Positions 4,241 through 41,158 of a stretch of DNA of 44,358 nt are shown here, in pieces; position 1 is the stretch's first letter; each line of letters starts with the position of its first letter. Source of the DNA: a virus. Location: the IMG/VR virus record IMGVR_UViG_3300044675_002639, positions 1 to 44,358 of that record. One strand, given 5' to 3'. The notes beneath the pieces were generated by a model. The model was not told the origin of the DNA and ran no database searches. It saw nothing but the letters and a program-made list of their open reading frames with translations. Both the position numbers and the translations under genes were made by a program.

Positions 4241-4312
4241 CGGCTTTTAGTTCAACGGATAGAACAACCGCCTTCTAAGCGGTGAATCAAGGTTCGATTC
4301 CTTGAAAGCCGA
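4241..4312 (+). tRNA. tRNA-Arg (anticodon TCT)
   Basis: The cloverleaf can be drawn in full. The acceptor stem is CGGCTTT (4241-4247) with AAAGCCG (4305-4311). The D stem is GTTC with GAAC, the anticodon stem ACCGC with GCGGT around the loop CTTCTAA, the variable loop GAAT, and the T stem CAAGG with CCTTG around TTCGATT. The anticodon TCT at 4274-4276 reads AGA and AGG. The discriminator base is A4312; CCA does not follow directly. It lies 9 bases after the ERF stop, inside the plus-strand operon, so it must be cut out of a polycistronic transcript. AGA/AGG are the main arginine codons in many of the structural genes. Confidence 0.95.
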
Positions 4313-4325
4313 CTCCACAACCAAT

Positions 4326-7564: not shown

Positions 7565-7865
7565 GGCTGGATATTTTTCGTAAAATCTTGTTTTTGACAA
7601 ACTCAAACAACTCTGGAGCAAAAGAACCAGAGATAGAGCATAGAACGCTCTTATACATTTCTGAGATTTCCATGTCATGCAGGGCAAAGTGGACTAGTAT
7701 GCCAATAATCGATGCTGCTACAATTTTTCTAAGCCATACTGACCAAATAAACTTTTCATTGGTAAATACCAGCCTTGCCAGCATTCCCAACGCACCAAGA
7801 ATACCCATGACCCAGCCAGCCCTTTTGAACTCGGCTACTATCTGTGAGTATTCTTGGTCGTTCAT
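7557..7865 (-). CDS. Holin (small membrane protein)
   Basis: The 102-residue protein has two clear hydrophobic helices, GWVMGILGALGMLARLVF near residues 17-34 and LRKIVAASIIGILVHFAL near 45-62. A third amphipathic or weakly hydrophobic stretch follows, and the tail is basic (FVKNKILRKISSHE). Small two-helix proteins directly upstream of an endolysin are the standard holin arrangement; holins open the inner membrane at a set time. It overlaps the giant ejection protein gene upstream by 4 bases and the endolysin downstream by 8, so the lysis genes are translated as part of the late transcript. Family not named; role inferred from topology and position. Confidence 0.75.
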   Translation of the reverse strand: MNDQEYSQIVAEFKRAGWVMGILGALGMLARLVFTNEKFIWSVWLRKIVAASIIGILVHFALHDMEISEMYKSVLCSISGSFAPELFEFVKNKILRKISSHE

Positions 7866-10800
7866 TTGACAGCCTTTCTGTCGTTGGGATTTCTAAGGTT
7901 CTTAAGTCCTTCCGCGTTGGCCTTTCCAGCCATGTCAAGGAATACGCCGTTTTGTGCGTCTTCGAACTTGTCAAACTTGCCAACAAGTTGTCCCTGTTGA
8001 GTGAACAGCCAGAAGTTAACTCTCTGACCCTGCTCCATAGACAGGGGCTTCTTGTCCTTGAATCTGATATTGATGCCAGGCCCGAACTTAGGCTCATTAT
8101 ACATCATCTTCTGGATTAGATATCCGGACTTGTTGACCCAGAAATCGGAAGCAATGGCCTGCTGCGACTCCCTGAGCGCATTCTCAGTTCTGATGAACTT
8201 TGCGACAGCATCAAGTGCGGCCGTAGCCTCTGGGGTAGTTCCGCCAACCTCAGGAGTCTTCCAAGCCTCAACTTTCTTGATGTCTCTTCTTACGAGTTCT
8301 CGCAGGATACCGATGCTATTCTGACGAAGTTCGTCGGCTAGTTTGGCCTGTTCCCACTCGGTCATAGCATCTTTCCAGAACTCCCAATCACCAAGTTGTC
8401 TGTCATACTCTCTTGACAGGTTGTCAAACTCAAGAAGAGCAGCGTTGTATGCCTCAACAGTATCATACGCTTCAGGAATTGGCTTTACTGGCTTATTCTT
8501 GGGTTTTGTAGGAACAGACTTAGGGTCGTCAACCGCAAGACCCTCACGTATTGCCCTTGCTCTTTCTCTCTTGGTTTCAAGATGCTCGTCAGCCTTGATT
8601 TGGTCAAAACTTCTGGTGTCGATGAGGGTTGCGAACAACCCTTCTCTTTCGAGTCTATCAACGAAGTCAGCGGCCCACTTTCTGGTAACAGTTCCATCCT
8701 TATCGTTCTCAACCACATCTTCTCCCAAGGCTTCAACCATTCGTCTGGTAGCCTCGATAGCAAAAGCGGGAGAAGTAGACTGGGCCAAGGTTCTCTTGAA
8801 CTCCCAGTAGAACGTGTTGTTTTCGGCAAATCTTCTCTTCATCAAGGGCGAAGTCTTGCCCTGATTCGGAACCCACTCCATATACGCAGAAGTCAGCATA
8901 CCAGTAGGATTTACACCCTTGGCAACATTCTCGGAAGAAACAATGGACGGAGCGTGCTTCTGGATGAAGTCATAATCGATTGCCACCTGTCTGATTCCAG
9001 ACTCTTCAGCCAACTTGACAGAAGCGGCCAATTCATTCGGGTCTATTACTCCTCTTCCCTGCCTGTCCCTCTTCTGTCCGTAGATTCGGATATTATCCAT
9101 AACCATGAGTCCAGTAGAGTTTTCATACAAGTCCCATCCGCCTCTGCCGTTTCTCTTGACGAACCATCTGTCGTCGATGCTGGAGAATTCACTTCTAGCA
9201 TTAACCTTAAAGTCAATGCCTCTAGGAAGCCATCCAGCCTCCTTCATGGCCTGTTCAATTTCGTTGCCGACAATAGGAACGTTCGACTGTCTGTTCTGCT
9301 TGGAGTGCTGTCCTGCAAGTTCAAAAGCACCCTCCTTGGTGTCGAAGTCTCTCCAAATCTTGTCGCCAATCTTTCTCTCAACAACGCTTCCGTCTGGTGC
9401 GATAAGAGTAAATCTGGCAGGTTGGAACTTGCCACCCTTTCTAGGCATAACAGACCAAACTAGGTAGCCAGAAGGATGCTCCCAGACCTCGTTGAGTCTG
9501 GACGAGCCCCACTCAAACGAGCCTCTGATTTGGTTGACCTTATCGATGTTTGCCCTACCCCAAAGGCTTTGCGTTCCGTAACCAATCTGCATGAATCCGT
9601 AGGAAGCACCGGAAATCGGGAAATCAAGGTCCTTACCCTTTGACTCAGTTACTCTTACGGGTTCTCCGATAAATCTATCAGGCCTGAAAAGAAAGAACGA
9701 TTGTCTGGTGTCAGACATCGGACCAGCACCATACTCAGCCCTGTCTTTGCCAATAAGGGATGCAAGCCATTCCTTTCTGGCATCTGGTTCAAAATCTAGT
9801 TCGCTTCTTCTCTGTTCGGCAAACTCAAGAAGAGCCTTTCGTCTTCTTTCGCTACTAGTCAGAAGAGCATCTCTCTCTGCCTTGGTAGCCTCTGTGAAAG
9901 CGTCCTCGAAAGTCCCGATGGTTCTGTGGATGATTGCTGCCATCTTGAGGGCCTTCTTCTTATCATTTCCAGCAGCCTCCATGAGAACTTCCCAGGTTCT
10001 AAATTCTGGCTTGTCGGTAACTGCAGTTCCATACTTTGCCGTGGCATAGTTTTGCATCACCTTGAGATACTGGGTGGTGAAGTTATTGAAAGAACCGAAC
10101 AGGCTGACCATTTCATCGTTAGTCCATCCGTAAATCTTTCCGTTCTTGTCAGAAAGTCTTCCCTGCCAAGAAGCAGCAACTCTTGCAGACCTTGCTTGGT
10201 GGTCCATAGCCAAGACATAAAGCATAGGTCTGCTCATGTATACCTTTTGACCTTCCTTGTTGGTGCCTTCGTAAATCTTGGTTCCTTCTGCGGTAAGTTG
10301 AGTGTCCTTGATTACAAGCATCAACGGAGAAAACAGCATATCTCTAGGCCCATCAGCCTTGACTGATGCAGTAGTTCCTGCGCCAACACCTCTAGTTACG
10401 CCCTGATATTCTCCTCTATAAACCACGTTATATCCGGGATTAGAGGCATCCTTGTGGAATGAAGAATTAGAAAGAGAAGAGAGCATCTCTTTCACGATGT
10501 TTAACGTCTGTCCATTCATCCTGAACAGAACATCCTCGTCAGATACGATTCTATTCTGTTCCTTAATCCACTCGAAGACCTTTGCGGCCTGTTCTGGGTT
10601 GGGCTGACCTACGAGAGTGTAGTAGTTTCCGCTTTTTCTAACCTGAAGTCCGAAGCCTTCGCCATTAGGGTCATCCTTAACGACCATTCCGACGAAATCT
10701 CTGATGACCCTGTTTTCCATGAAAAACAGTTCTTCGACCTTTTTCTTAAATACACCAGCAGCCTTGTTTTGGCCAGGAGTTCCTACTCTGATTGGGTCAT

Positions 10801-13800
10801 TTCTAGCCGAAAGCCAATGCTGTCTGCCAGTAGCATACGCCCAAGTAACCCTAAATCTGGTTTCTTCTGGGTCGAGGGCATCCTGTCCTTTGATTACTCT
10901 CTGAACGTTGAAAGGGTCGTCAAAACTGATTCTAGAACCAAGACCTCTGCTATGAAGAATTCCAGCGTCAACCCATCCTTTTGCTTCGAACGGAATCTGT
11001 CTTAGAGAACCATCTGGGCTCCACATTTCGTCCATGTTCCAGTATCTAAACGGGTCGTTGGAGTCGTTGCCCTTTCTTAGAGCACCAAGATTTGTAAGTC
11101 TGTCATGAATGATGTTGTTCCAGGAATTAGGAAGAATTCCGTTCGGGCCAAAATAGTTGACCACGTTCATAACGCTTTGCAGATACTTTGACGCTTGTGC
11201 CGCTTCTGGAGAGTTGGGGTCGATACTCATCAGGTCATATCTTCCCTTCATCAAAATATCGACAAGCGTGGTTTCGCCAAATACGAACTTAAGCCAGTTT
11301 CTGGCACCCTCGCCACCTGCGACGACTGGAGAACCCATGATAGGTGATGTATTCCAGTTTCCGGTATAAGACTCGGCAGAGCCAAATCTGGACTTTGCCT
11401 GAGGAGCCATGTTCATCATGTTTCTCTGAACATACATGGAAGACCACAATTCCATGAACACGCCTTGAAGGTGTCTGGTGTCGAACTTGTTTTCTCCGAA
11501 CTTCTTTACGCCGTAATCAAATCTAGCCATGAATTCGGCTTTTGCAGCCTCGCTAGGCAGGGAGTTAGAGTATGCTAGGGCGTATTCCCTGATAATTTCA
11601 AGGTTTTTGTTAACATCTCCAGTAAGCCCAGGTTTAGCATCTACGAGATTACCCTTTGAATCCAGAACCTTCATTACCTGGGCACCGTTTTCATCGACAG
11701 ACCATCCTCCGAGAATGTCTCGCTCCATCTGGATTCTGGTAGGTCTCATCGCTTCTGCGAAATAAATCGAGTGAGCATACTCTTCCAAAGCAATTTGATA
11801 TCCGTGGGCAGAAAGGAACTTACCGTCTTTTGTGAATTCGGCTCTCTTTAGAAACTCCTCGATGTCAAGATACATTCTTGCTCTGGTTACTTCCTTGCCA
11901 GTAACGGGGTCAATAGAAGGAACTTCCCAGATGGTAAGACCTTTTCTGTTGATTACATAAGAACCATCGGGGTTTACGGCGATCTGTCTGTCAGAGTATC
12001 CTGGGGTTTCTGGAACTGACATGAGAGTGCTTCTCTCTTCTCCGAGTTCTCGGATTCTGTTGTTAATCTCAACAATGTTGTTGTTTTCGACCTGAATAGC
12101 CTGATTGATTGACCTCTTTTCCTCAAGAACGGCTTTAAGTCTGGAAATAACTTTGGGGTCAATTCCTGGAAGTTGAGAGAGGTTCTGGCCCTGATATATA
12201 ATATCTACAATATCAGTTCTTCCTTCTGCGTCAGCAAACTCCTGTCTAAGCGGATTTTCGCTTCTAAGGTCAAAAGTCCTAGGCTTGCCGTCTTCTGGCT
12301 TTACGAACTTCTGGCTATATCTTACAGAAAGGAGTTCTGGGTTAAGTCCAGCCTCTCTAACGATAAGGTCCAAGGCTTCTTTTACTTCCTGAAGCCTCTT
12401 GCCGACCTTTTCGCTGATTTTTACTTTCTCTCCTTCAAGCTTTTCGCTCTCTTCGTTGATATGGACGATTCTCTGTCTTGCCGTAAGGAACTTCTCATGG
12501 CTATCCATGATAGACATGGCATAGTTTCTGGCTTCGTCTCCAGTAAGCCCCAGTCTTCCAGCAGCCTCTTGAAGTTTGTCAATAAACTGTTGTCTGAGTT
12601 CTGGGTTGGTTCTGTATTCAATGGCAGACTGAAGCATGGCAACGCCGTCAATCAATCCAGAACCCTTGGTCAGAATTACATCTCCGTGGATAGAGTAAAT
12701 TCTATCAAGGATTGAAAGACCAATCTGGAACTCAATGTCAGCCCTAGACTCTGGAGAAAGGGTAAGGACACCCCTGCCAGGCTCGTTCTTTGATTTTTCT
12801 TTTCTATCGTAAAGTCTGGCGATGGCTTCCATCAGGATTGCACCCTGATCTGGAGCCATCGTTCTCATCTTCATAGAAAGAGAGTAGAGGGAAAGATTCG
12901 CTCTTTCCTTAACAGTAGCGGTAGGAGACGTATTTCTGAAGATAGAACCAGACAGGATGTGTCCGCCTCTCATTCCAGTAACAAAACCAGAACCAAGGCC
13001 AAACGACTCCGTGTCGTTCATCATCATCAATCCTTCTCCGACGACAAGGCTGCCCCCGTATCCCTTGATTTGAGAGGCCATGTCAAACACACCATATCTG
13101 CTAAGTGCGTCAACTCTGGAAACAAACTTAACCTTTTTAGTCAGAAGGCCAAGTTCGTTCTTAAGTGCGGCAATTTCAGTATCCTTGAGTTTTGCACCAG
13201 CGTTTATGTTGGCTTCAAGTGCTCTTTCAATTTCGTCAATTCTGGTAAGATAGGTTCTTTTAAGGTTATGGATATTTCCGGTAGCATCAACAGGAGCCTT
13301 TCTAGCAGAGAAGAAGTAGTCCTTTAGGGAGGCAAAAGCAGCCTCAAAATCACCAGCAACATTGGCAGCCTGAATCCACTTATTCACAGTAGAAACTCTC
13401 TCAAGTGCGGTCTGGCTTCCGACACCAAGTCTGGTGCTTGCAAGTTCGTGGTTTGAGGTGCTGGTAGTTCTCAGAACAGTCTGGACTTCAGACGGGTTTA
13501 CAAGGTGTGCTCCGAGCCACTTCACGACCTTGTTGGAAACCCAACCAAGCCCCTTGGCCATATACTCAAGGATGAAAGACCCGCTTCCAGCAGCACCATA
13601 ATAATAAAGGTTAGGGTCAAGAGGACTCATGCCGAGAGAGTCAGCTGCCCTGAATCCAGCTTTTCCAGTAACATTGATACCACTCCAATGCTTTCCTACC
13701 TCTTTGTTAAGGTCAGCGATCTCGGTAGCGGTAAGAGAAATAGCGGACTTAGTTCCAGGCTTTTCGATAGGAGCAGTCCTAGAGCGAAGGTAAATTACGC

Positions 13801-15928
13801 TATCATTTGCCTTATCCCAACCGCCATTGGGTTCAAGTTCGACAAGTCTATCCCTGATTTTCTTCATGGTAGCCTTGGAAGTATCGGAAAGATTGGCATA
13901 CCATTCTCTTGCACCAGCAGCAGTATTGGCAAGTTCTCTTCTTACGTGCCATACGTTGTTTGCGTGGTTCACGATATCATTCTTAACCAACTCGATTTCA
14001 CTCTTGGTTAGGGCTACCTTCTGACCTTTTGCGACAGGGCTTTCAAACAAGGCTTCGCCTTTAAGAATTGCTTCAAGAGCCTCAGTTTCGGTAACCTTGG
14101 CTTTTCCGGTTCTTGCCTTGATTTCGTCGATTGCAATATCGATGTATCTCTTTGCCGTAGCACCAAGGCCCATCTTCTTTCTTACGAGATACTCCATGTT
14201 GGCAAGGAGTCCTCTATGTTCAGCACTTGCGGACTCGAAGATACTTTCAAAACCTGCTCTTACTGCAGCCTGGGCTTTTGAGGCTCTCAAGGCACCAAGA
14301 CCTTTTGAGAGGGGTGCGGCAACAAGGAAGACATCAGACCACATTGACGTGTTATATCCAACCCTCGAATCATACCACTTTCCTTTGGCAATAAGACCCT
14401 CGTTAGACTTTTCCATGAACCAATCTTGGACATTTACGGAGTTCTGGAAATATGACATCTGAGCCCTAGTGGACACATTCTGGTCAATAAAGAAAGAGTA
14501 AAGCGGGTTAAATGCGGTAAGTCCGTATTTTGCTGCATTCTTGCTATCGATACCCTGTCGGGTTGACCAGGCCTGTGTGTCAATGAGGGCCTGAGACCAT
14601 CTGGTTCCAGCCCACCAAGCAACAGAATCTGGGTCGGTAGAAAAGCCCAACGCAGAAATAGCAAGAGTTCCTTGAACAGTAGCATCAAGTCCTGCGAACA
14701 AAGAAGACAGACCCCAGACATCCATCTGAAACGCACCTTTTGCGTCCAACTGCTTGTAAAGTTCAAGAAGTTCTCTGGTCTGTTCGTCAATTGGCTTTAC
14801 CTCAAGAGGGTCTGGGAAGTCCCAATCCTCTGGAGCCTGCATTGCACTCTTCTCGCCTCTCTCAAATGCTGCAAGTTGACCGCTTCCAGCCTGCTTGTTT
14901 CTTTTCGGGTCTTTAGACCATTCATCAAACTTCTTGATGAACTTTTCTTTCAGTTCAGCGTTTTCTCCGCTGGCAATCTTCCAGTCATCAGTCCAATTAA
15001 ACTCTGGATACACAGTAGACCTTGCAGCCTCTGCGATAGACATTCCGAAAGAGTCAACAAGGTGTCCTGCTCCAGTAAAGAAGTTTACGAAAAAGTTATG
15101 ACCTTCTTGAGACTTTCTCCACTCGACATATCTTTGGAAGTCGGCAACGTCCTGCTTGTTGTTAGCGTTAAGTTTTCTTCCTTTGATGATTTCCATCGGA
15201 AGAGAAGAAGCCTGCCAGCCCCTTTCAGGGTTCTGAGAAATCCAGTCTTGATAAAGGTTCTGATAGACGGAAATACCCCATTTCTTGGAATAAGGATTGT
15301 TAGCGTGTCTATCGAAGAGGTCTTTTTCTTCCTGAGTCTTGATTAGTCCATTGTAAAAAAGCCAGTCAGAAATCACGGGAGTTCCGCTTTTGCTGTTTCT
15401 TACGTCTTCAAAATCATTTGCAAGTTGTTTGTCGGCCTTTAGTTTCTCAAAAAAGCCAGACTCAAGGATTCTTTTGGTAATATGACCAGCCCTATCTTGG
15501 GCTGCTGCTACATTGGTAGCAACCTCGTCAGAAGTAGCACCAAAGGTAGAAACCCAAGCCCCGTAGTTGCTTCTTCTGGGGAAAGCGGTCATGTCAGGAA
15601 CTGCTCCAAAAGCATCCATGCTTCTTCGCAGATTCGTTTCCTCCATCTGTCTTTTTACAAACTCAGAGGACTCTTTTTGATATTTCTTTTCAGCCTGAAG
15701 AGCATACTCAAATCTCTGATACTCCTTGCCCATCGTCGGGTTGGCTTTCCATCTTTCCAAGAAAAGCCTGTTTTCAGCCGTTCCTTGGCTGATTTCGCCA
15801 GCAGGGAACCAGTCTGCGTAGTTAGCAGGAACTTCAACCGCAGGAGATACCGGCTTTTTGCCAGCAAGTTGTGCTGCGGTTGCGGTATCTGCTTTCGGAG
15901 CGTTAGTGATAGGTAGAAGGTCAGACAT
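7862..15928 (-). CDS. Giant virion protein (2688 residues), candidate DNA-ejection protein
   Basis: This single open frame covers 18 percent of the genome. It follows two smaller proteins with internal-virion character and precedes the lysis genes, the place of T7 gp16 after gp14 and gp15. The protein is mostly charged and helical, with no signal peptide and no long collagen or beta-helix repeats, which argues against a tail fibre. A stretch near residue 2080 (GASYGFMQIGYGTQS) superficially resembles lytic transglycosylase sequences but lacks the rest of that domain. Arginine codons are mainly AGA/AGG: 7 of 8 in residues about 55-125, matching the encoded tRNA. A virion RNA polymerase as in N4 was considered, but no polymerase motifs were seen. 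The start follows an A-rich leader without a Shine-Dalgarno. Confidence 0.72.
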   Translation of the reverse strand: MSDLLPITNAPKADTATAAQLAGKKPVSPAVEVPANYADWFPAGEISQGTAENRLFLERWKANPTMGKEYQRFEYALQAEKKYQKESSEFVKRQMEETNLRRSMDAFGAVPDMTAFPRRSNYGAWVSTFGATSDEVATNVAAAQDRAGHITKRILESGFFEKLKADKQLANDFEDVRNSKSGTPVISDWLFYNGLIKTQEEKDLFDRHANNPYSKKWGISVYQNLYQDWISQNPERGWQASSLPMEIIKGRKLNANNKQDVADFQRYVEWRKSQEGHNFFVNFFTGAGHLVDSFGMSIAEAARSTVYPEFNWTDDWKIASGENAELKEKFIKKFDEWSKDPKRNKQAGSGQLAAFERGEKSAMQAPEDWDFPDPLEVKPIDEQTRELLELYKQLDAKGAFQMDVWGLSSLFAGLDATVQGTLAISALGFSTDPDSVAWWAGTRWSQALIDTQAWSTRQGIDSKNAAKYGLTAFNPLYSFFIDQNVSTRAQMSYFQNSVNVQDWFMEKSNEGLIAKGKWYDSRVGYNTSMWSDVFLVAAPLSKGLGALRASKAQAAVRAGFESIFESASAEHRGLLANMEYLVRKKMGLGATAKRYIDIAIDEIKARTGKAKVTETEALEAILKGEALFESPVAKGQKVALTKSEIELVKNDIVNHANNVWHVRRELANTAAGAREWYANLSDTSKATMKKIRDRLVELEPNGGWDKANDSVIYLRSRTAPIEKPGTKSAISLTATEIADLNKEVGKHWSGINVTGKAGFRAADSLGMSPLDPNLYYYGAAGSGSFILEYMAKGLGWVSNKVVKWLGAHLVNPSEVQTVLRTTSTSNHELASTRLGVGSQTALERVSTVNKWIQAANVAGDFEAAFASLKDYFFSARKAPVDATGNIHNLKRTYLTRIDEIERALEANINAGAKLKDTEIAALKNELGLLTKKVKFVSRVDALSRYGVFDMASQIKGYGGSLVVGEGLMMMNDTESFGLGSGFVTGMRGGHILSGSIFRNTSPTATVKERANLSLYSLSMKMRTMAPDQGAILMEAIARLYDRKEKSKNEPGRGVLTLSPESRADIEFQIGLSILDRIYSIHGDVILTKGSGLIDGVAMLQSAIEYRTNPELRQQFIDKLQEAAGRLGLTGDEARNYAMSIMDSHEKFLTARQRIVHINEESEKLEGEKVKISEKVGKRLQEVKEALDLIVREAGLNPELLSVRYSQKFVKPEDGKPRTFDLRSENPLRQEFADAEGRTDIVDIIYQGQNLSQLPGIDPKVISRLKAVLEEKRSINQAIQVENNNIVEINNRIRELGEERSTLMSVPETPGYSDRQIAVNPDGSYVINRKGLTIWEVPSIDPVTGKEVTRARMYLDIEEFLKRAEFTKDGKFLSAHGYQIALEEYAHSIYFAEAMRPTRIQMERDILGGWSVDENGAQVMKVLDSKGNLVDAKPGLTGDVNKNLEIIREYALAYSNSLPSEAAKAEFMARFDYGVKKFGENKFDTRHLQGVFMELWSSMYVQRNMMNMAPQAKSRFGSAESYTGNWNTSPIMGSPVVAGGEGARNWLKFVFGETTLVDILMKGRYDLMSIDPNSPEAAQASKYLQSVMNVVNYFGPNGILPNSWNNIIHDRLTNLGALRKGNDSNDPFRYWNMDEMWSPDGSLRQIPFEAKGWVDAGILHSRGLGSRISFDDPFNVQRVIKGQDALDPEETRFRVTWAYATGRQHWLSARNDPIRVGTPGQNKAAGVFKKKVEELFFMENRVIRDFVGMVVKDDPNGEGFGLQVRKSGNYYTLVGQPNPEQAAKVFEWIKEQNRIVSDEDVLFRMNGQTLNIVKEMLSSLSNSSFHKDASNPGYNVVYRGEYQGVTRGVGAGTTASVKADGPRDMLFSPLMLVIKDTQLTAEGTKIYEGTNKEGQKVYMSRPMLYVLAMDHQARSARVAASWQGRLSDKNGKIYGWTNDEMVSLFGSFNNFTTQYLKVMQNYATAKYGTAVTDKPEFRTWEVLMEAAGNDKKKALKMAAIIHRTIGTFEDAFTEATKAERDALLTSSERRRKALLEFAEQRRSELDFEPDARKEWLASLIGKDRAEYGAGPMSDTRQSFFLFRPDRFIGEPVRVTESKGKDLDFPISGASYGFMQIGYGTQSLWGRANIDKVNQIRGSFEWGSSRLNEVWEHPSGYLVWSVMPRKGGKFQPARFTLIAPDGSVVERKIGDKIWRDFDTKEGAFELAGQHSKQNRQSNVPIVGNEIEQAMKEAGWLPRGIDFKVNARSEFSSIDDRWFVKRNGRGGWDLYENSTGLMVMDNIRIYGQKRDRQGRGVIDPNELAASVKLAEESGIRQVAIDYDFIQKHAPSIVSSENVAKGVNPTGMLTSAYMEWVPNQGKTSPLMKRRFAENNTFYWEFKRTLAQSTSPAFAIEATRRMVEALGEDVVENDKDGTVTRKWAADFVDRLEREGLFATLIDTRSFDQIKADEHLETKRERARAIREGLAVDDPKSVPTKPKNKPVKPIPEAYDTVEAYNAALLEFDNLSREYDRQLGDWEFWKDAMTEWEQAKLADELRQNSIGILRELVRRDIKKVEAWKTPEVGGTTPEATAALDAVAKFIRTENALRESQQAIASDFWVNKSGYLIQKMMYNEPKFGPGINIRFKDKKPLSMEQGQRVNFWLFTQQGQLVGKFDKFEDAQNGVFLDMAGKANAEGLKNLRNPNDRKAVK

Positions 15929-15933
15929 TTTGA

Positions 15934-18519
15934 TTATTTTTCAAGATTGCCAAATCTTTCATTAGCACCAGAAACAATAGCATCAAACGTAGCCTTCCCT
16001 CTTCCGCCGACATAGGTTCGTCTTTGTTCTGGAGTCATGTTTTGCATGACTTCATTTTCCCTATTCGTCATTCCTCTGAAGAACTGGAAGTCGTCCATTG
16101 TTAGTTTTCTGCCTAGGATTTTCCCAAAGTTGGCGTTATAAGCATCTAGCGAATCCTGGGTCATTACAAGTCCATTTGCTTCCATGGTTCTTGCGTGGTT
16201 CATCATAACAATCAACGCCAGACCTCTCATTCTATTAAGATTGAACTCCGTGATAGTAAAGGCAGCTCCAGGGTCAGGGACGGTTTCTCTGAGGATTTCC
16301 TGCTCAAAGTTGGAAGGATTACCACCACCGATAAACGCAGTTCTAATCAGAGAAATAAGACCAGCACGAAGCGGTTGAGCACCTGCATATTCAGGGTCAG
16401 TAAGCGAATCCACAACTCTAGTAGGTCCGTATTTTTTGTTAAGCTTAGAAAACAGGCCAAAAAGCTGATTAATCTGAGGAGCAAGGCTTCGCATACCGAT
16501 ATTGGCTTTGGCAATACCTCCGTGGGCATCAGAGTCTGTCAAAGACTTGAGGGATGGGGTTTGTCCAGAATACTGTGCCTGAACGCTAGAAACTTTACCT
16601 TCGTTTGCAGGGTTTCTAATTGCCCAATTTCTAAACTCTGAAATGGAGTATTTAGCAGGCTTTCCGTTTACAGTAGTAGGAAACCCCTTGAAGTTCTTTA
16701 CAATCTTGGCAACATATCCCCAATGGGTTTCCTTGTCGTCGGGATTAATACCAACCCAAGTAGAGAACTTTTCGTTCATTCTGTCAACAGCCTTTGCGTT
16801 TGACTCAGAAACGCCTTGAAGGGCCTGAACGACTGCAAGTTGATTCTTTTGCTCTTCAATTTCTCTGGTAAGGGCATCAGCCTTGGCTTTGACAGAAGTA
16901 GGGCCGTTTTCATTGTCCCAGGCGGTATGAGCAGCCTTGATAGCCTCAAGGTTGGTCATAGCAGCATTAACATCAGCCCTAAGGTCTTTTCCGATATCTC
17001 CGCCAACTCCGTCAGCAAGTCTAAGTTTAGAAGCAACAGCTTCCTGTGCCTTATACAGTTTGTCGGTATATGGGTTTGTAGTAACAGTAGAACCTACAAG
17101 GTCTGCTCTTTTCTTGATAAGGGCATCAACCTTCGAAGAAGAAGCAACAAATCTTGCTTCTGCGGCTGCTGCTTGTTCTGCAATAACATTAGAACCACTA
17201 AGGGTGTGCATATCTGCACCAAGTTCAACAAAGTCATTAGTAGGAACTTGGAATGCGTTAACAAACGCAGCATCGAGTTCTCCCTGTTCCCATGACATTG
17301 GAGCATTGGTTCTATCTCTTGAAGCCCAAGCAAAAGCCCTTTGAATGGTGATAAGGTCCGACTTGTTATCTTCGTTGATATATCCTTCGATAGCCATAGC
17401 AGCCTCTTCCTTCGTAGGCTGGATTCTTGAGAGAAGGCCAGGATGGTTGCTCATGGCCCAACTCATGATATGGAACATTCTTGCTCTGGACAGAATCTTC
17501 TCTTGTTCTTGCTTAGGAAGTTTTGAGTATGCGTCAGAAAGGGCCAGATTTCCGCTTTCATCAAACTTGAACGTATCTCCGCTAAGTTCAATGATAGGAG
17601 ACATAGCAGTTCCGTCGGCTGACTTTCTAGATACGATTTTACCAAGAACAGGGGCAGTAAACTGCTTTCCTTCCTTGTCCGTGAAGTTTCTGGTAATCTT
17701 AGACTTAGGGTCTAAAAGAGCAGGAACGTTAAGAAATGAAGTAAACTCGACCTTGCTACTCTGCTCGACTGGTGCAGTCGCAGAAGGAGTAGGTTCAGGA
17801 GTGGTGGTCTGAGGAAATTGAAGTTTTGCTTCTTCTTCCGTGATTTGAGCGACAGGATATTCTGGCTCTCCCCCTTCAGCACCGCTAGCAGCAGAGGGGG
17901 CTGAGTTAAAAGGGACTGCTCCAAGAGCCCTTGCTGTTCTATTCTTTGCTGGGTCTCTATAAGTAGGACCAAGGTCAGGTTGTTCTGGTGCTTGTGCTTG
18001 AGGAGAACCAAGTTCATTCATCTTGTTAAGGAAGTCCTGAAAACCCTTGTTGGTGTTCTGAAGGTCAAGCAAAATCTGAGCCTGTCTAGACTTAAGAGCA
18101 TCAAGGTCAGCAGGTGTAAGAACGGTCTTTTGTTCATTATGAGCATTCAGTCTTGCTTGAAGCATCTGATACTCATTGTTAAGACTTGCGGAGGTTTCCT
18201 TCAAAATACCACCTCTGGCGGTAAGCAGGGCATTTGTAGAATCAGACCTAATCTTTTCCCTGTCATTATCGGCCTTCTTATCGTCAGCACCAGCCTTGAC
18301 TTTTGCGGCTTCGGCGGAAACCCTGGCTGCTTCGGTTTCTTTTTCCTTAAGCTTAAATTCGGTATCCTTCATCAGCATATTTGCGATGTTGGACCCCATG
18401 TTACTATACATATTTGCTTCCTGGGCTACGGATTCCATGTATCCAGCGGGGATAGGGGACATATTCATCCCAGCGTAACGGGCGAACATACCTCCGCCCT
18501 GATTAGGAGTATTAGGCAT
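15934..18519 (-). CDS. Internal virion protein (861 residues), candidate ejection protein
   Basis: The protein starts MPNTPNQGGGMFARYAGMN and has a long coiled-coil region near residues 50-170 (repeated EAARVSAEAAKVKAG, then helices rich in Asn, Gln and Leu). A proline- and acid-rich linker follows (EQPDLGPTYRDP, TTPEPTPSATAPVE), then a large helical C-terminal part. No catalytic motif was recognised. Its size and place between a smaller CFI-box protein and the giant 2688-residue protein match T7 gp15 in the gp14-gp15-gp16 ejection set, which forms a channel across the host envelope. It overlaps the upstream gene by 8 bases and is separated from the giant gene by 5. Role inferred from context. 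Confidence 0.68.
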   Translation of the reverse strand: MPNTPNQGGGMFARYAGMNMSPIPAGYMESVAQEANMYSNMGSNIANMLMKDTEFKLKEKETEAARVSAEAAKVKAGADDKKADNDREKIRSDSTNALLTARGGILKETSASLNNEYQMLQARLNAHNEQKTVLTPADLDALKSRQAQILLDLQNTNKGFQDFLNKMNELGSPQAQAPEQPDLGPTYRDPAKNRTARALGAVPFNSAPSAASGAEGGEPEYPVAQITEEEAKLQFPQTTTPEPTPSATAPVEQSSKVEFTSFLNVPALLDPKSKITRNFTDKEGKQFTAPVLGKIVSRKSADGTAMSPIIELSGDTFKFDESGNLALSDAYSKLPKQEQEKILSRARMFHIMSWAMSNHPGLLSRIQPTKEEAAMAIEGYINEDNKSDLITIQRAFAWASRDRTNAPMSWEQGELDAAFVNAFQVPTNDFVELGADMHTLSGSNVIAEQAAAAEARFVASSSKVDALIKKRADLVGSTVTTNPYTDKLYKAQEAVASKLRLADGVGGDIGKDLRADVNAAMTNLEAIKAAHTAWDNENGPTSVKAKADALTREIEEQKNQLAVVQALQGVSESNAKAVDRMNEKFSTWVGINPDDKETHWGYVAKIVKNFKGFPTTVNGKPAKYSISEFRNWAIRNPANEGKVSSVQAQYSGQTPSLKSLTDSDAHGGIAKANIGMRSLAPQINQLFGLFSKLNKKYGPTRVVDSLTDPEYAGAQPLRAGLISLIRTAFIGGGNPSNFEQEILRETVPDPGAAFTITEFNLNRMRGLALIVMMNHARTMEANGLVMTQDSLDAYNANFGKILGRKLTMDDFQFFRGMTNRENEVMQNMTPEQRRTYVGGRGKATFDAIVSGANERFGNLEK

Positions 18520-35739: not shown

Positions 35740-36045
35740 ATGACGCAGAAACACAAGTGGAACACGTCCTGGAAGTTCAGCGAAGAGACCAACGCTCTCG
35801 TTACTTCTATCGAGTCTTCCTTCGATGTGTCTGATGAAGCCAAGCGAGTCCTCCGACTTCGCGTGGCCGCATCTGGTAAGACGCTTGCCTACATTGTCTC
35901 CTTGGAGTCTTCCTTGGAGGCTGGTGCTGGCTTCTTCCATCCTGCCCTTATCATCAGCCCTCACAAGCTGGATAAGCGTGGAGACATCATCGAGAAGCTC
36001 GAAGGACTTGGCATCGAGAACCCGTTTGATATCATCATCGGGTAA
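35740..36045 (+). CDS. Unknown 101-residue protein, first of the small-gene cluster
   Basis: The start has a recognisable ribosome site (AGGAAGG about ten bases upstream). The protein begins MTQKHKWNTSWKFSEETNAL and is mixed helix and strand, ending with an acidic and then hydrophobic tail (EKLEGLGIENPFDIIIG). It has no membrane segment or known motif. Codon use is more G/C-rich, with CGN arginine codons, unlike the late genes. It is followed by a strong terminator-like hairpin, so it may be made from its own short transcript starting in the structured control region. Function unknown; an early host-takeover protein is a reasonable guess. Confidence 0.65.
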   Translation: MTQKHKWNTSWKFSEETNALVTSIESSFDVSDEAKRVLRLRVAASGKTLAYIVSLESSLEAGAGFFHPALIISPHKLDKRGDIIEKLEGLGIENPFDIIIG

Positions 36046-36066
36046 TCGGTAACCAAGTGCTCGTCA

Positions 36067-36101
36067 GGGAGGGGAGTGTTGGAACGCTCCTCTCCCTTTT
36101 T
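36067..36101 (+). terminator. Rho-independent terminator after the 101-residue gene
   Basis: GGGAGGGGAGTGTT (36067-36080) pairs with AACGCTCCTCTCCC (36083-36096) through 14 pairs including two G-T wobbles, then TTTTT. This is a canonical intrinsic terminator for plus-strand transcription. It is the first of a series of hairpins that follow each gene in this cluster. Confidence 0.8.
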
Positions 36102-36176
36102 ACCTTCTCTACCTTTCGTGGCACTCCGCCACAAACTACGCCACCTAGATTGGTGGTAACCCCAACAAAGAAGGCT

Positions 36177-36476
36177 ATGAAGCACAGCGAAACCCAAGTG
36201 CTCGATGCTTATCTGATGGCGTGCAAGTTCCGGGATGCTCAGTCCCAGAACCTGTATCGCCTCCGCAATCCGAGTGCGGCCACCCTACGCAAGCAGACCG
36301 ACCTCTTCAAAGGTCTGGTCGATGTGTTCGGTGAGTCAGAAGGCAAGCGACGCTGGATGCAGTATCTGCACGCTCTCAGGAACGACAAGAGCAAGGCCAA
36401 GGAACTCCACTCCTACTGGAAGTCCGAAGCCAAGCGTCTGAACAAGGTCCTGCGGTTCCTCAAGACGATCCGATAA
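36177..36476 (+). CDS. Unknown 99-residue basic helical protein
   Basis: The start ATG 36177 follows AGAAGG closely. An upstream in-frame ATG at 36057 would read through the terminator hairpin and is rejected. The protein is helical and basic in its second half (KRRWMQYLHALRNDKSKAKELHSYWKSEAKRLNKVL). That pattern suggests nucleic acid or protein binding. It stands alone between two hairpins. Arginine codons are mostly CGN. No family recognised. Confidence 0.65.
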   Translation: MKHSETQVLDAYLMACKFRDAQSQNLYRLRNPSAATLRKQTDLFKGLVDVFGESEGKRRWMQYLHALRNDKSKAKELHSYWKSEAKRLNKVLRFLKTIR

Positions 36477-36494
36477 CATCCATCGACGCTAGTC

Positions 36495-36520
36495 GTGGGG
36501 AGGGCAACCTCCCCACTTAT
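36495..36520 (+). terminator. GNRA-loop hairpin after the 99-residue gene
   Basis: GTGGGGAGG (36495-36503) pairs perfectly with CCTCCCCAC (36508-36516) around a GCAA loop, a stable GNRA tetraloop, followed by TTATT. The T tract is weak, so it may terminate poorly or instead protect mRNA 3' ends. Position and stability agree with the other hairpins of the cluster. Confidence 0.6.
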
Positions 36521-36586
36521 TGGGGGTAGTTACTTTCCCAAGCCAACAGGGTCTGTTGTTGGCAACCAAAGTATAGAAAGGACGAT

Positions 36587-36796
36587 ATGAAAGAAATCAA
36601 CTGCATGCACGATCGTGATATCTGCATCGAGGAGATTGTCAAGATGACCTATCTGATGGGCATCCCCGACGATCCTCGGTTCAAGGTTCTCACGCTCATC
36701 CAGTTGCCGTATCACGAGCTGGCCCGTCGCCGTCTTGATTGCTACGTTGAGCTCATCAACTACGCATACAAGAAGCTGGGTCACCTCTCGATCTAA
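36587..36796 (+). CDS. Unknown 69-residue protein
   Basis: The start is preceded by AAAGGA at good spacing. The protein begins MKEINCMHDRDICIEEIVKM and is helical, with two cysteines early and one later, a PYHELARRRLDCYVEL helix and a hydrophobic-basic end (YAYKKLGHLSI). No membrane segment or known motif. It lies between two hairpins as a single gene. Function unknown; small early proteins of phages often bind and redirect one host protein. Confidence 0.65.
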   Translation: MKEINCMHDRDICIEEIVKMTYLMGIPDDPRFKVLTLIQLPYHELARRRLDCYVELINYAYKKLGHLSI

Positions 36797-37344: not shown

Positions 37345-37457
37345 TGCCCATTTGATAGCGCATAGCGCACGGATCCTGTCAAAGCTGCAAGTTTCTATTT
37401 GGCCACAGTCAAGCAGTATGTTGCGTCCAACCCCCCAACCAAACGGGAAACAGTAAT

Positions 37458-37688
37458 CTACCATTAAACCGTTATTGCATATTATCATAGAACCGCACAT
37501 CCAGGCAGTCTGTGGATCTAGCAACAGGCCAACAGGTGCGGAAAGCGGGAACTACCATTCTACCATTATTGGTATTTCCCAATAACCATTAAAACCGCAT
37601 AACTGTATAAACTGTTAAATGCCCGATGCCGGCCATTCTATCATTCTACCATTAACCCTATTCTACCATTAATAGCATTCTACCATTA
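37458..37688. repeat. CTACCATTA repeat array
   Basis: Copies of CTACCATTA or close variants start at 37458, 37552, 37560, 37638, 37646, 37663 and 37680; the last three are exactly 17 bases apart. An AACCATTA also lies at 37584. ACCATTA recurs at 41097-41103 and 41141-41147 on the far side of the amidoligase module. There is no gene between 37345 and 37828. The array looks like an iteron-type binding site; a boundary or replication function is speculative. Confidence 0.6.
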
Positions 37689-37828
37689 CCATGTTTTTCA
37701 CAAAGCCTTGACTTGTGGTGATCAGTCCAATCCACACATCCGTCAATGTTTACGATAGTCCAGGCTATGGGTCTTTGCCGGATTTGCGGAACTGTATTTT
37801 TTGACACATACCCATTTTAACTAGAAAC

Positions 37829-37856
37829 AAAAAAGGGAGACTATCGCTAGTCTCCC
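37829..37856 (-). terminator. Rho-independent terminator of the amidoligase operon
   Basis: On the minus strand GGGAGACTA and TAGTCTCCC form a perfect 9-base stem around a four-base loop (plus-strand 37835-37856), followed by six T (plus-strand A 37829-37834). It lies 37 bases after the amidoligase stop. A weaker stem CTTAC/GTAAG around 37870-37885 lies between the two. Confidence 0.85.
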
Positions 37857-37892
37857 TGATATCTGACTTACTTACTTTAAGTAAGTTGCTGA

Positions 37893-39455
37893 TTAACTGA
37901 GATTGTGATCGCTGGTATATTCGTGCCTAATGTTATCAATAGCACTTACGACATTTACCCACTTATCCCAAGTTGGGGTAGACTCATTGAGTGTGGGAAG
38001 TTGGAAAGCACCACAATGCGAGTTATTCGCAAGGTGCTTTTCCCACAAAGGTTTGAATTTGCCAATTCGCTCGATCACATAAACCTTGAGTTCCAGCGGA
38101 CATTCGGACTCCATAAAGTCCTCAAAGGTGTCAATCTTGGTAGAGTTATTGACACACCAGAACATAAGGCTTGCCCACATCTTCAACTTCCAGAAGTTTA
38201 GGGTAGGCATACCAACACGCACTTCCACAGTATTGTGTTCACTATGGCAATGGGTATTAATAGCAGAATACCTAGAAGCCTGAGAGTCAGCCCATACCGA
38301 ACAATAGCGGTTTGTGGCTCTACGAGGACTTATGGTTCTATGCAACCACGACTTAAACGCATCTCTGACCCTTCCAGCGATCCTGTAATAAGTAGCAGAA
38401 GGGCGGTTTCGCATATCAATATGAACGTGGCAACCACAGGATTTGTTGATCCTACCACCTGCGTCAGTTAGCAGTTTCAGGGTATTCTGGACTTTATCCC
38501 AATTCTCTTGATTGTTGATATTGAGGAAAGCCTTATACTCCTGATAACGAGCAACTGCCTCATCTTGGCAATCCGTAGTAATGCTACCATCCGTGGTAAA
38601 CGAATTCCACCTAGAAGTGGGGTAATCATCACTATCCCAAGTTGCCAAAGGTGCGTTATTCTCGGAAACGAATTCCAACTCGATCCCGATACAATCACCT
38701 TCTGGGAACTTACGGAAAGCCACAGTCTTGTGGAAGTTGTCAAGATGCCTAGACCAGTGCATTGGGGCAGTATGGTAGATCCTGTCCATTGCTGCTTCCC
38801 ACTTTTCTTGGATAGTCTCGCTTCTCACGAAACCACGAGCATAGTGGTTTCTGCCAGACTGCAGGTTCTCGCAACCATCCATAAAGTAGCGGAATGCGTT
38901 TCCGTGCAGTTTCATGAATTGCGAGACATTGACTTTCACCTCATTCCAGTCGGTTTCGAAAACCCAGGGATTGGTGATATAGGTGCTATGCTGGATATTC
39001 GTAGGAATACGATCTTTGCACAACAGGTGGATCCAGCCTTCCACATTATTGCGGAAATACCCAGATTGATGGGTTCCCTTGATATGGGAATTATAGACTT
39101 TCGTCACCCAATCAAAAAGGCTGGACTTGTGGTTTCGGTGGATCTTGCATTCCAGCAGTTGTCCGATAGCCTCACAACGCTGTTTAATGCCGTTTGCTGA
39201 GATCGAAGAACAATGGTTATGCGAGTAATTGGTGGAAGACGAGAGTCCCAGAACCACACAATCCGGATGCTTACGGACAATGGGGTTCAGGTTGTTCCAC
39301 CAATTCGCACGACTATCGAGAGTCATGTAATGGCCGAAATCAGCGCTATGCTTGTTTAGCATAGAAATGACTTTCTTCTGTTTCTTGGCAATCGGCTTCC
39401 GAATGGAAAGCAGAAAACCAAGTTTATCGGGGGTTTCCTTATTATCAGGCTTCAT
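37893..39455 (-). CDS. Amidoligase (glutamine-synthetase-like COOH-NH2 ligase) with large N-terminal extension
   Basis: The C-terminal half of this 520-residue protein carries the signatures of the amidoligase family, a glutamine-synthetase-fold group that uses ATP to join a carboxylate to an amine. They are GIELEF at 257-262 (metal/ATP glutamates), TTDGSI at 287-292, CGCHVHIDM at 340-348 (the HxH block), and TVEVRV at 409-414 (the E-x-R block). Residues 1-245 form an extra domain that I do not recognise, rich in Trp, His and Asn, with three Cys and His clusters (SSTNYSHNHCSS). It is the second gene of a two-gene operon after a class II glutamine amidotransferase, which could supply ammonia or transfer a glutaminyl group. 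Known amidoligases are predicted to make peptide-like tags or to modify proteins or cell wall; the substrate here is unknown. Confidence 0.82.
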   Translation of the reverse strand: MKPDNKETPDKLGFLLSIRKPIAKKQKKVISMLNKHSADFGHYMTLDSRANWWNNLNPIVRKHPDCVVLGLSSSTNYSHNHCSSISANGIKQRCEAIGQLLECKIHRNHKSSLFDWVTKVYNSHIKGTHQSGYFRNNVEGWIHLLCKDRIPTNIQHSTYITNPWVFETDWNEVKVNVSQFMKLHGNAFRYFMDGCENLQSGRNHYARGFVRSETIQEKWEAAMDRIYHTAPMHWSRHLDNFHKTVAFRKFPEGDCIGIELEFVSENNAPLATWDSDDYPTSRWNSFTTDGSITTDCQDEAVARYQEYKAFLNINNQENWDKVQNTLKLLTDAGGRINKSCGCHVHIDMRNRPSATYYRIAGRVRDAFKSWLHRTISPRRATNRYCSVWADSQASRYSAINTHCHSEHNTVEVRVGMPTLNFWKLKMWASLMFWCVNNSTKIDTFEDFMESECPLELKVYVIERIGKFKPLWEKHLANNSHCGAFQLPTLNESTPTWDKWVNVVSAIDNIRHEYTSDHNLS

Positions 39456-39467
39456 GTTTTTTTGGTA

Positions 39468-39486
39468 TTTGGTATTTTTTGGGTTT
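39468..39486 (-). promoter_or_regulatory. Leader motif AAACCCAAAAAATACCAAA before the amidoligase gene
   Basis: The 19 bases are identical to 40576-40594 in front of the amidotransferase gene. Here they end 12 bases before the ATG, in the 51-base gap between the two genes; there the distance is 7. There is no Shine-Dalgarno at either start. The motif could be a translation-enhancing A-rich leader or a binding site for a regulator that controls both genes together. Confidence 0.6.
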
Positions 39487-39506
39487 CGCCTTTTGGGGCA
39501 AATTGG

Positions 39507-40568
39507 TTAGTCGTTATGTTTCCAGGGTTTGTTGTTAGCCCTGTATCTACGCAGTTGTTCCTTTCGGAGTTCTTTGATATCCTCGGACTCCGGCTTTTGG
39601 GCAGGAGTAGTGGAAGGAGAGGAAGTGGGAGTATTAGTAGTTGCGGTATATCCGTCTACTTGGTCTTCCCAATAAGAACCGTATCCATAAGAACCGCTAG
39701 TAGTGCCATAACCAGCAACACCAGCAGAACCGAGAGATCGGCTAATTGCACCATATCCAATTCTACGGGAATATGACTCGAACTTGGAAAACTCATTACT
39801 CTCGATCTCACCATTTGCGAGGAACGTATGTTTCACATAAGGTGCGAGAAGCATAGGAGTAGTGATAGTGGCAGTTTTGAGTCCATTGAAGGTAAGCATC
39901 AAATTAGCCAATTCGGTGCAATGGGTAGAGTCTGTGCAAATGATATATTGCCCAAGTTGCTTGATATACACAAGATACAAAGGAGCACGATCATCACGTA
40001 AACAGAACATATCACCATTTGGGTTAATACCCACAACTGCGGCATATCCAGAAAGTCCCTCTTTAAAGGAATGTTCACCTTCTGCATAAAGGAAGCAATT
40101 TAGGATATGCTCAGAGTCGCAAGTTGTGTGGGTCGGGTATTTCTCACCTTCCCAATCAACTACGCCATTATGGGCAATCGTATATTCACCCTTTTCGCTG
40201 GTTCCATTGAAAGGGTGAGTATTGGTGATCGACTTTCCACAGGTTGCAGTCCTTCCGTGGGCAATATAAGACCTGAGGACTTTGCCATTTTCTGGCTTTG
40301 CACCTTTCTGGTCATAGTCGATCCCGTAGGTTAACTGAGTCCTGATACTTGCGGGAAGTGTGTCCCGAGAGTCTTTCAGCACTCCGATACCTTTGCAGGT
40401 TTCCGGGTTCTGGTATCTTTCCATGAACACACCTTTAGTGGTTTGCATGGCATAACCGAAACCATCCTTTTGTGAAGAACCCAGGAGTTCCGCAGATTTG
40501 CGGACTACCTGACTTGCCTGCTTTAAGGATTTGCAGGCAATTACGTTCATTGCTATTAGTTTACACAT
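39507..40568 (-). CDS. Class II glutamine amidotransferase (Ntn-hydrolase) with Tyr/Gly/Ser-rich tail
   Basis: The 353-residue protein begins MCK, so removal of Met exposes Cys2, the N-terminal nucleophile of class II glutaminases, which release ammonia from glutamine. Family motifs follow: QKDGFGY at 33-39, HGRTATCG at 104-111 with THPF at 117-120, AHNG at 132-135, CDSE at 150-153 and LRDDRAPL at 190-197. Only the glutaminase domain, about 230 residues, is present. No synthase domain is attached; the neighbouring amidoligase probably plays that part. Residues 265-312 are low in complexity (GYGTTSGSYGYGSYW) and the last 25 are charged and helical, perhaps a docking segment. It is the first gene of the operon, with a good promoter 90 bases upstream. 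Confidence 0.85.
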   Translation of the reverse strand: MCKLIAMNVIACKSLKQASQVVRKSAELLGSSQKDGFGYAMQTTKGVFMERYQNPETCKGIGVLKDSRDTLPASIRTQLTYGIDYDQKGAKPENGKVLRSYIAHGRTATCGKSITNTHPFNGTSEKGEYTIAHNGVVDWEGEKYPTHTTCDSEHILNCFLYAEGEHSFKEGLSGYAAVVGINPNGDMFCLRDDRAPLYLVYIKQLGQYIICTDSTHCTELANLMLTFNGLKTATITTPMLLAPYVKHTFLANGEIESNEFSKFESYSRRIGYGAISRSLGSAGVAGYGTTSGSYGYGSYWEDQVDGYTATTNTPTSSPSTTPAQKPESEDIKELRKEQLRRYRANNKPWKHND

Positions 40569-40575
40569 CGTGTTT

Positions 40576-40594
40576 TTTGGTATTTTTTGGGTTT
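40576..40594 (-). promoter_or_regulatory. Leader motif AAACCCAAAAAATACCAAA before the amidotransferase gene
   Basis: Identical over 19 bases to 39468-39486 in front of the amidoligase gene. It lies within the predicted 5' untranslated region, 7 bases before the ATG. A looser relative, GCCCAAAAAACACAC, stands upstream of the gene at 42454-42657. Confidence 0.6.
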
Positions 40595-40657
40595 TAGTGA
40601 GATCGGATATTTTGTAAATCTGCTAAATCTACAACTTCCCCTAGTTTCACTTTTCTT

Positions 40658-40685
40658 ATAATACATATATCTGATCACCTGTCAA
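40658..40685 (-). promoter_or_regulatory. Sigma70-type promoter for the amidotransferase-amidoligase operon
   Basis: On the minus strand TTGACA (plus 40680-40685) is followed by 16 bases and TATTAT (plus 40658-40663), nearly consensus for the housekeeping sigma factor. Transcription would begin near 40650, giving a leader of about 80 bases before the amidotransferase ATG at 40568. This suggests that the module can be transcribed by host RNA polymerase independently of other phage operons. Confidence 0.72.
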
Positions 40686-40701
40686 GCACATAATTTACTG
40701 G

Positions 40702-40900
40702 AAAACCGGAATCAGATTTTTGTTGGTTTGATAGTTTGTTGTAGTTTGCAAAATGATCTGCAATCAGTTTAAAACCGGAAGTGATTATCTTGCTTTTATC
40801 TGGATTTAACGCCGGCTTTCTTTTTGTGGAAAAACTGGAAGCGATCTAAAACTTGTTTCAGTCAAAAACGTGATCAGAACGTCAGCTGGAATGAGATTTT
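40702..40900. repeat. Degenerate repeats AAAACCGGAA..GAT upstream of the module promoter
   Basis: AAAACCGGAATCAGAT (40702-40717), AAAACCGGAAGTGATTAT (40771-40788), AAAACTGGAAGCGATCT (40831-40847) and CTGGAATGAGATTTT (40886-40900) share a core CYGGAAnnnGAT, spaced about 69, 60 and 53 bases. They begin about 16 bases upstream of the -35 element, so an activator or repressor array is likely. No gene is seen in 40569-41158; bases 40901-41158 are T-rich, with two ATATACCATTA copies near 41093 and 41137. Confidence 0.5.
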
Positions 40901-41158
40901 GGTGGGAACAGCCCAGGTCGAATTAGTCATAGTTTCTTAAATTTGGCCAGAAAACTTGACCCGTCAAACTTGCAGATTTTTCGTTCCGCATCTTTCGTTG
41001 ATTTTTGATCGCAGTTTTTTGCCAGCGCCAGACCTTGTTTTTCCGGCTTATTTTCAGTTTTCCGCGGCTTTCGGCCAGGATGATTTTGCCTCATATACCA
41101 TTAAATGGTTTCGAAATGAGATTTGATTTAACTGCAATATACCATTACTCGAATTTAA

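Follow-up and report, generated by a model that had tools for sequence, protein, structure and literature searches.

A class II glutaminase and a glutamine synthetase-fold amidoligase form a gene pair resident in one phage group

Results

A glutaminase and an amidoligase gene lie side by side

The DNA analysed here is the virus record IMGVR_UViG_3300044675_002639, which is referred to at its full length of 44,358 bases as the window. On its minus strand it carries a pair of genes, here called the module, that encode a class II glutamine amidotransferase (GAT-II, or glutaminase) and an amidoligase with a glutamine synthetase (GS) fold. The module comprises the following features.

39507..40568, minus strand: class II glutamine amidotransferase (glutaminase), 353 amino acids (Pfam GATase_6, fold match, conserved residues); Cys2 at 40563-40565
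39510..39773, minus strand: variable glutaminase tail, residues 266-353; SLGSAG box (residues 278-283) at 39720-39737
38721..39455, minus strand: ligase N-terminal part, residues 1-245, mostly helical (helices in the model; no Pfam family)
37893..38720, minus strand: GS-fold amidoligase catalytic part, residues 246-520 plus stop codon (Pfam Amidoligase_2, VIA-align matches, conserved residues)

The whole ligase gene (37893-39455, minus strand, 520 residues) lies 51 nt beyond the glutaminase gene, and both open reading frames (ORFs) are where a first-pass annotation of this DNA had placed them. Both genes are real, and their assignment to the two families is supported because Pfam matches, predicted folds and conserved catalytic-type residues were found for each.

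The glutaminase protein begins Met-Cys and matches GATase_6 (PF13522) with an E value of 1.8e-9 and 38.1 bits, above the curated cut-off of 27. Residues M1 and C2, R106, N134-G135 and D151 are invariant in the alignments, both in five of five diverse rows and in all thirteen rows of the module group, which includes the window; we take the Cys2, Arg, Asn-Gly and Asp residues to form the glutamine site of class II amidotransferases. AlphaFold models of the glutaminase and of the ligase were each built from 13 homologues. The best fold match of the glutaminase model is E. coli PurF (Z 21.7 for 223 residues, root mean square deviation (rmsd) 2.6), and other matches include the GlmS glutaminase domain (1xff, Z 18.6), GFAT and EgtC (Z 17.5). 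The model thus has the predicted fold of a class II, N-terminal nucleophile glutaminase. A phmmer search of the PDB sequences gave no match for this protein, tblastn against named phages gave none either, and in NCBIfam only purF and one GlmS-type model were hit, both far under the cut-off.

The glutaminase tail is mostly of low confidence in the model. Inside this otherwise variable tail the SLGSAG box is unchanged in all 13 aligned rows. A looser form, [RKSTNG][SA][LF]G, which we picked after inspection of the tails, is present in 21 of 52 non-redundant MCK-type glutaminases, ten of these carriers being from the window's group, while shuffles gave a mean of 2.1 and a maximum of 10. It was found in 0/11 MCG-type and 3/11 other glutaminases.

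The ligase matches Amidoligase_2 (PF12224) at residues 316-390 (E 2e-8, 34.9 bits against a curated cut-off of 22), as had been proposed at first pass, and a PHROGs family of amidoligases (E 4.1e-9). Amidoligase_2 matches all thirteen group members at E <=0.1. In the model (mean pLDDT 79) the VIA-align matches cover residues 251-482; the best is to YbdK (Z 10.7, 212 residues, rmsd 5.1), after which the list contains glutamine synthetases (Z ~10), plant glutamate-cysteine ligase and Dop (Z 9.5). The catalytic part is therefore modelled as a GS/YbdK/glutamate-cysteine ligase fold, in agreement with the first-pass expectation. Neither of the outcomes that would have refuted the first-pass proposal arose, as the profiles match and both models show the folds of their families. 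Residues E259, E261, D289, H343, H345, E411 and R413 are invariant in seven of seven diverse rows, and these acidic, His and Arg residues presumably form an ATP/metal site. Foldseek against viral proteins returned 33 matches at E <=0.001, many of which are named amidoligase. With tblastn against named phages, 21 records were matched at less than 60% identity and a coverage of at most 42%; phmmer against the PDB sequences gave a best E of only 0.83 for the ligase, and NCBIfam gave no match.

For the N-terminal part of the ligase no known family was found. Pfam reported no family in the first ~245 residues of the window protein, and a search of PDB sequences gave three matches at E 0.13-0.46. 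Since the fold matches reach residues 251-482 only and this part was not folded alone, a known fold is still possible there. Homologous N-terminal parts were detected, among all ORFs, in L010 (E 2.6e-12) and L090 (E 1.4e-7). This mostly helical part of ~245 residues without a known family is a group-specific feature. Across the 13 ligases, Pfam also gave five stray families besides Amidoligase_2, each in one member (E 0.004-0.08), and PHROGs gave five families without a name, each in no more than two members (E 0.03-0.07); both sets, with match positions unchecked, were taken as chance.

The two genes are under purifying selection and the ligase N-terminal part changes fastest

We compared the window with eleven relatives, leaving out its near copy, L002 (97% identity over 11 kb). 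Identity to the window is 45-65% in the glutaminase core and 35-52% in the ligase catalytic core, 24-37% in the glutaminase tail and 14-20% in the ligase N-terminal part, a level at which the alignment itself is unsure. For comparison, the terL product is 60-81% identical (nine relatives) and the capsid protein 59-94% (eight relatives). Between the window and L002, the ratio of nonsynonymous to synonymous substitution rates (dN/dS) is 0.03 in the ligase catalytic part, where 1 and 8 changes were counted, and 0.29 in its N-terminal part, where the counts are 13 and 11 (Fisher p 0.047); the glutaminase core has 10 synonymous changes and zero amino-acid changes. No sign of dN/dS above 1 was seen in this comparison. 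The substitution pattern is therefore that of constrained, translated genes with one faster domain, the ligase N-terminal part, and the module genes are under purifying selection.

The module has a constant place upstream of terL

The terL gene is present in all 14 records that carry the module or part of it, and a capsid gene in 11 of the 14, the other three records being 8.5-21.5 kb long. In the window and ten placed relatives the module is on the strand of terL, 3.8-7.2 kb upstream of that gene (G001, G005, G012 and G014 are excluded from this placement); in two of these records this holds only when the sequence is treated as circular, and in two the gene order is swapped.

Sister records were chosen by terL: from the best 80 of 430 terL loci we kept the 17 records of at least 30 kb (30.8-46.3 kb) outside the module group. 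Amidoligase_2 is absent from all 17, while four of four module-bearing controls were positive, and therefore the module was gained or lost. The group's own ligase profile gave one match in 20 sister-type records, a partial one at a contig end. GATase_6 was detected in only two of the four module-bearing controls, so the absence of the glutaminase from the sisters rests on the group's own profile, which matched 0/20 records (the sisters and three shorter ones) in a search that had no positive control. In a terL tree of 27 rows (G001, G005, G010, G012 and G014 excluded), ten rows bear the module. Nine of them make up a single clade with full support, and the remaining one, G013, has a long branch. 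Two module changes are required by the best tree, and the well-supported branches force one of them. The module is thus resident in one phage group, with a constant place in the relatives examined, and is not roaming cargo.

The flanking signals are not conserved

Four flanking features of the module were recorded.

40658..40685, minus strand: promoter-like site TTGACA-16-TATTAT, function doubtful (11/12 consensus match)
37834..37857, minus strand: predicted intrinsic terminator, a perfect 10-bp stem and 4-nt loop followed by a T-run
37459..37688, no strand: five TACCATTA repeats, intergenic, downstream of the module (word count)
41096..41147, no strand: two more TACCATTA copies, upstream of the module (word count)

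The near-consensus promoter described at first pass does match at 11 of 12 positions, but the window holds three such sites, against a mean of 0.6 and a maximum of 2 in 20 first-order Markov sequences of equal length, and a local scan found four promoter-like sites against 7.9 in shuffles. The site is near chance level for the window. Among 12 related loci an 11/12 match recurs in L002 only, with a 10/12 match in L185, and we do not accept the sigma-70-like promoter as a sign of autonomy. The perfect terminator, put at 37829-37856 in the earlier annotation, is a convincing prediction. The repeat arrays reported on both sides fared unequally. TACCATTA has seven copies in the window, confined to the two flanks (five left, two right), and because 0/100 shuffles reach seven, the left array is real. 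The right flank is thin, with two TACCATTA and three AAAACCGGAA-like words; in the window the AAAACCGGAA-like word has nine one-mismatch matches against 4.2 expected.

Promoter, terminator and repeats occur together only in L002 among the 12 related loci. In the remaining 11, the scan, made for sigma-70 hexamers and for perfect 7-12 bp stems and thus blind to other signal types, found one locus with a 10/12 promoter match and one with a perfect-stem terminator; the repeat word never exceeds three copies per strand across a whole locus, a number passed only in L002.

The left TACCATTA array (37459-37688) is iteron-like, partly with 17-base spacing, and occupies a non-coding stretch flanked by two gene groups that converge on it. 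A possible function is that of an origin or operator.

The gene pair is common and already published

In a survey of co-occurrence, suggested at first pass, 63 of 80 viral amidoligase loci had a GAT-II gene on the strand of the ligase and no more than 3 kb away, as did 26 of 80 amidoligase loci of bacterial genomes. The viral loci are the best 80 of 267 confirmed relatives, drawn from at least 599 stretches, and include near-duplicates. Fifty-four of the viral pairs are ligase-first and nine were counted glutaminase-first; four of the nine (L052, L059, L067, L082) have ligases on either side. In seven of the 17 viral loci without a glutaminase, the sequence stops less than 900 bases after the ligase. 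Scans of viral contigs with a single protein yielded just one near copy, and alignment queries were needed for these relatives. Ligases flank a single glutaminase in L052, L067 and L082, and L059 has five amidoligase ORFs with one glutaminase.

An unannotated gut phage record has the same adjacent arrangement of the two genes, and adjacent amidoligase and glutamine amidotransferase genes are annotated in the records of the Arthrobacter phages Salgado and Ottawa. In the stretches examined of a Bacillus phage and a Porphyromonas phage with an amidoligase, no glutaminase was found. Salgado gene 99 (L004) is a glutamine amidotransferase in its record and a GTPase domain protein in an extract of the cluster AL paper (PMC5513430).

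Extracts of published papers report both enzymes in UFV-P2 (PMC3890496), phage tf (PMC3517423) and PSA-HP1, the last together with a list of further podoviruses (PMC5498523), an amidoligase with an 'aminohydrolase' in phage U17 (PMC11945000), and amidoligases with cyclotransferases in Clostridium clostridioforme prophages (PMC11318856). Several of these extracts, with reference to Iyer et al. 2009 or Hardies et al. 2013, propose that the cell wall is changed or that other phages are excluded, and in them the role of the phage pair is only proposed. The pair is thus common and not new, and we rejected it as a discovery: it is annotated in named phages, discussed in papers and frequent at viral loci.

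Other features of the window

Between the module and the upstream genes is a 55-codon ORF (40927-41094, minus strand) that is also readable in L002 and has no Pfam match. Two minus-strand genes of 2688 and 861 residues (7862-15928 and 15934-18519) have no Pfam or PHROGs match, each at E 0.01. A tRNA-Arg (tct) at 4241-4313 on the plus strand overlaps the start listed for the ORF at 4302, and therefore the true start of that ORF is probably later. A Shine-Dalgarno-like word precedes only four of 45 picked gene starts, two of them in the plus-strand cluster 35740-36796. A-rich leaders are frequent, and both module genes have one; such leaders and scarce Shine-Dalgarno words would, we presume, suit a Bacteroidota host.

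Discussion

Our best explanation of the locus, to which we give a probability of roughly 0.45 as a whole, is that the two genes form a glutamine-dependent amidation module resident in one phage group. It draws on the computed families, predicted folds, invariant catalytic-type residues, adjacency, dN/dS and constant place of the genes, on the conservation of SLGSAG, and on the cell-wall proposal published for related cassettes; from these we infer the chemistry, a physical complex, a substrate and a benefit to the phage. Cys2 of the glutaminase, made N-terminal by removal of Met, would split the gamma-amide of glutamine. With ATP and metal, the GS-fold ligase would activate a carboxylate, to which it would then couple the released ammonia or an amine. 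Substrate selection would most likely fall to the ligase's variable helical N-terminal part, and docking of the two enzymes to the SLGSAG box in the tail of the glutaminase. The likeliest target would be a carboxylate of the host envelope or of a small molecule, for example on the peptidoglycan stem peptide, altered during infection. The glutamine-derived conjugate on the cell wall, the virion or a host factor that was suggested at first pass is one of several candidate readings, while the functional pairing of the enzymes put forward there was in our judgement right.

Several results weigh against the amidation module. The confidence of the glutaminase model is modest (mean pLDDT 66, with residues 58-90 and 289-328 below 50). 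Foldseek alone is weak for the ligase against the PDB, with a best E of 0.098 and none at E 0.001. Loci seeded with the glutaminase have a ligase in only 5 of 15 cases, two weakly, and four of the other ten start at a contig edge. The cyclotransferase family GGACT (PF06094) was found in 0/10 group records (the window and nine relatives, which may be incomplete) and in 9/14 controls, other cyclotransferase families not being searched; the link to the fuller published cassettes is therefore looser. 

The main rival, somewhat unlikely in our view, is a pair that adds and removes a gamma-glutamyl group. The ligase would attach this group to a peptide or an amine, and a gamma-glutamyl amide would afterwards be hydrolysed by the GAT-II enzyme, as in ergothioneine synthesis with EgtA and EgtC. 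Consistent with it are YbdK and plant glutamate-cysteine ligase in the ligase fold list, EgtC in that of the glutaminase, and the gamma-glutamyl cyclotransferases that related cassettes carry. It is weakened by the GGACT result in the group records, and the closest glutaminase fold matches are the ammonia-transferring PurF and GFAT, although a hydrolase is still compatible with these. Comparisons of folds and families do not decide between this pair and ammonia transfer.

A bolder form of the amidation module, which we consider unlikely, is a diversifying system that edits the envelope or proteins independently of the other genes of known cassettes: the fast N-terminal part would retarget one conserved chemistry to different host substrates, and SLGSAG would plug into the ligase for ammonia transfer. 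A further reading, in which the pair modifies a protein (of the virion, a host factor or a defence protein) that the N-terminal part recognises, is decidedly unlikely. It would suit the much faster change of this part relative to the catalytic core, terL and the capsid protein, and the presence in the ligase fold list of Dop, an enzyme of a protein-modifying pathway; but Dop is just one of 50 rows, mostly glutamine synthetases, PADLOC gave no match, and dN/dS is below 1 in the single close comparison. The independent cargo unit of the first-pass annotation, a roaming cassette that brings its own promoter and terminator and is bounded by repeats, is very improbable: the terminator and left array exist and the module was gained or lost, but its position and strand upstream of terL are fixed in the placed relatives, nine of its terL rows share one clade, its flanks are not conserved and its promoter-like site is near chance.

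We see in the gene pair a sound and mostly known finding in a distinct variant. The ligase N-terminal part and the glutaminase tail, singled out as unusual at first pass, were borne out as such and are its candidate new elements; our comparison with the literature concerned the pair, and we make no claim that either element is unpublished.

Among known systems, MurT-GatD of Gram-positive bacteria is alike in working only, as an ATP-dependent ligase with a glutaminase that amidates peptidoglycan. Unlike the window's enzymes, MurT is Mur-ligase-like and GatD is of another glutaminase class, class I, and we claim no homology. In ergothioneine synthesis the GS/glutamate-cysteine ligase-type EgtA likewise works with an N-terminal-Cys class II enzyme, EgtC, but the latter hydrolyses a gamma-glutamyl amide and feeds no ammonia to the ligase. 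Salgado and Ottawa have the same two families as neighbours on the same strand. However, the ligase comes first, their ligases (337 and 324 amino acids) lack the long N-terminal part and are ~24% identical to that of the window over residues 245-463 or 286-463, and their glutaminase tails lack SLGSAG. The marine OM43 phages MEP401 and MEP402 and more than 30 metagenomic genomes have the same two Pfam families, according to an extract that lists them as auxiliary genes of unassigned function (PMC10580990); the likeness is one of description. Similar in proposed role is the phage peptidoglycan modification cassette of PSA-HP1 and of the LUZ24-like UFV-P2 and U17, in which extracts describe an amidoligase with a glutamine amidotransferase or 'aminohydrolase' and propose cell-wall change and superinfection exclusion (PMC5498523, PMC3890496, PMC11945000). 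These cassettes have three to five enzymes, including an ATP-grasp and a gamma-glutamyl cyclotransferase, of which the window's group showed no GGACT; those of UFV-P2 and U17 also have a COOH-NH2 ligase, and in UFV-P2 an HNH gene lies between the ligase and the glutaminase. For the COOH-NH2 ligase family PF14395 the group comparison is uninformative, with matches in 0/10 group records but likewise in 0/14 controls; a general Pfam scan, with no dedicated search, gave no ATP-grasp among 32 window proteins. The phage group described here offers a compact counterpart in which the tail motif is constant and one domain varies, and with it coupling and substrate choice could be addressed with two proteins in place of a cassette of up to five enzymes.

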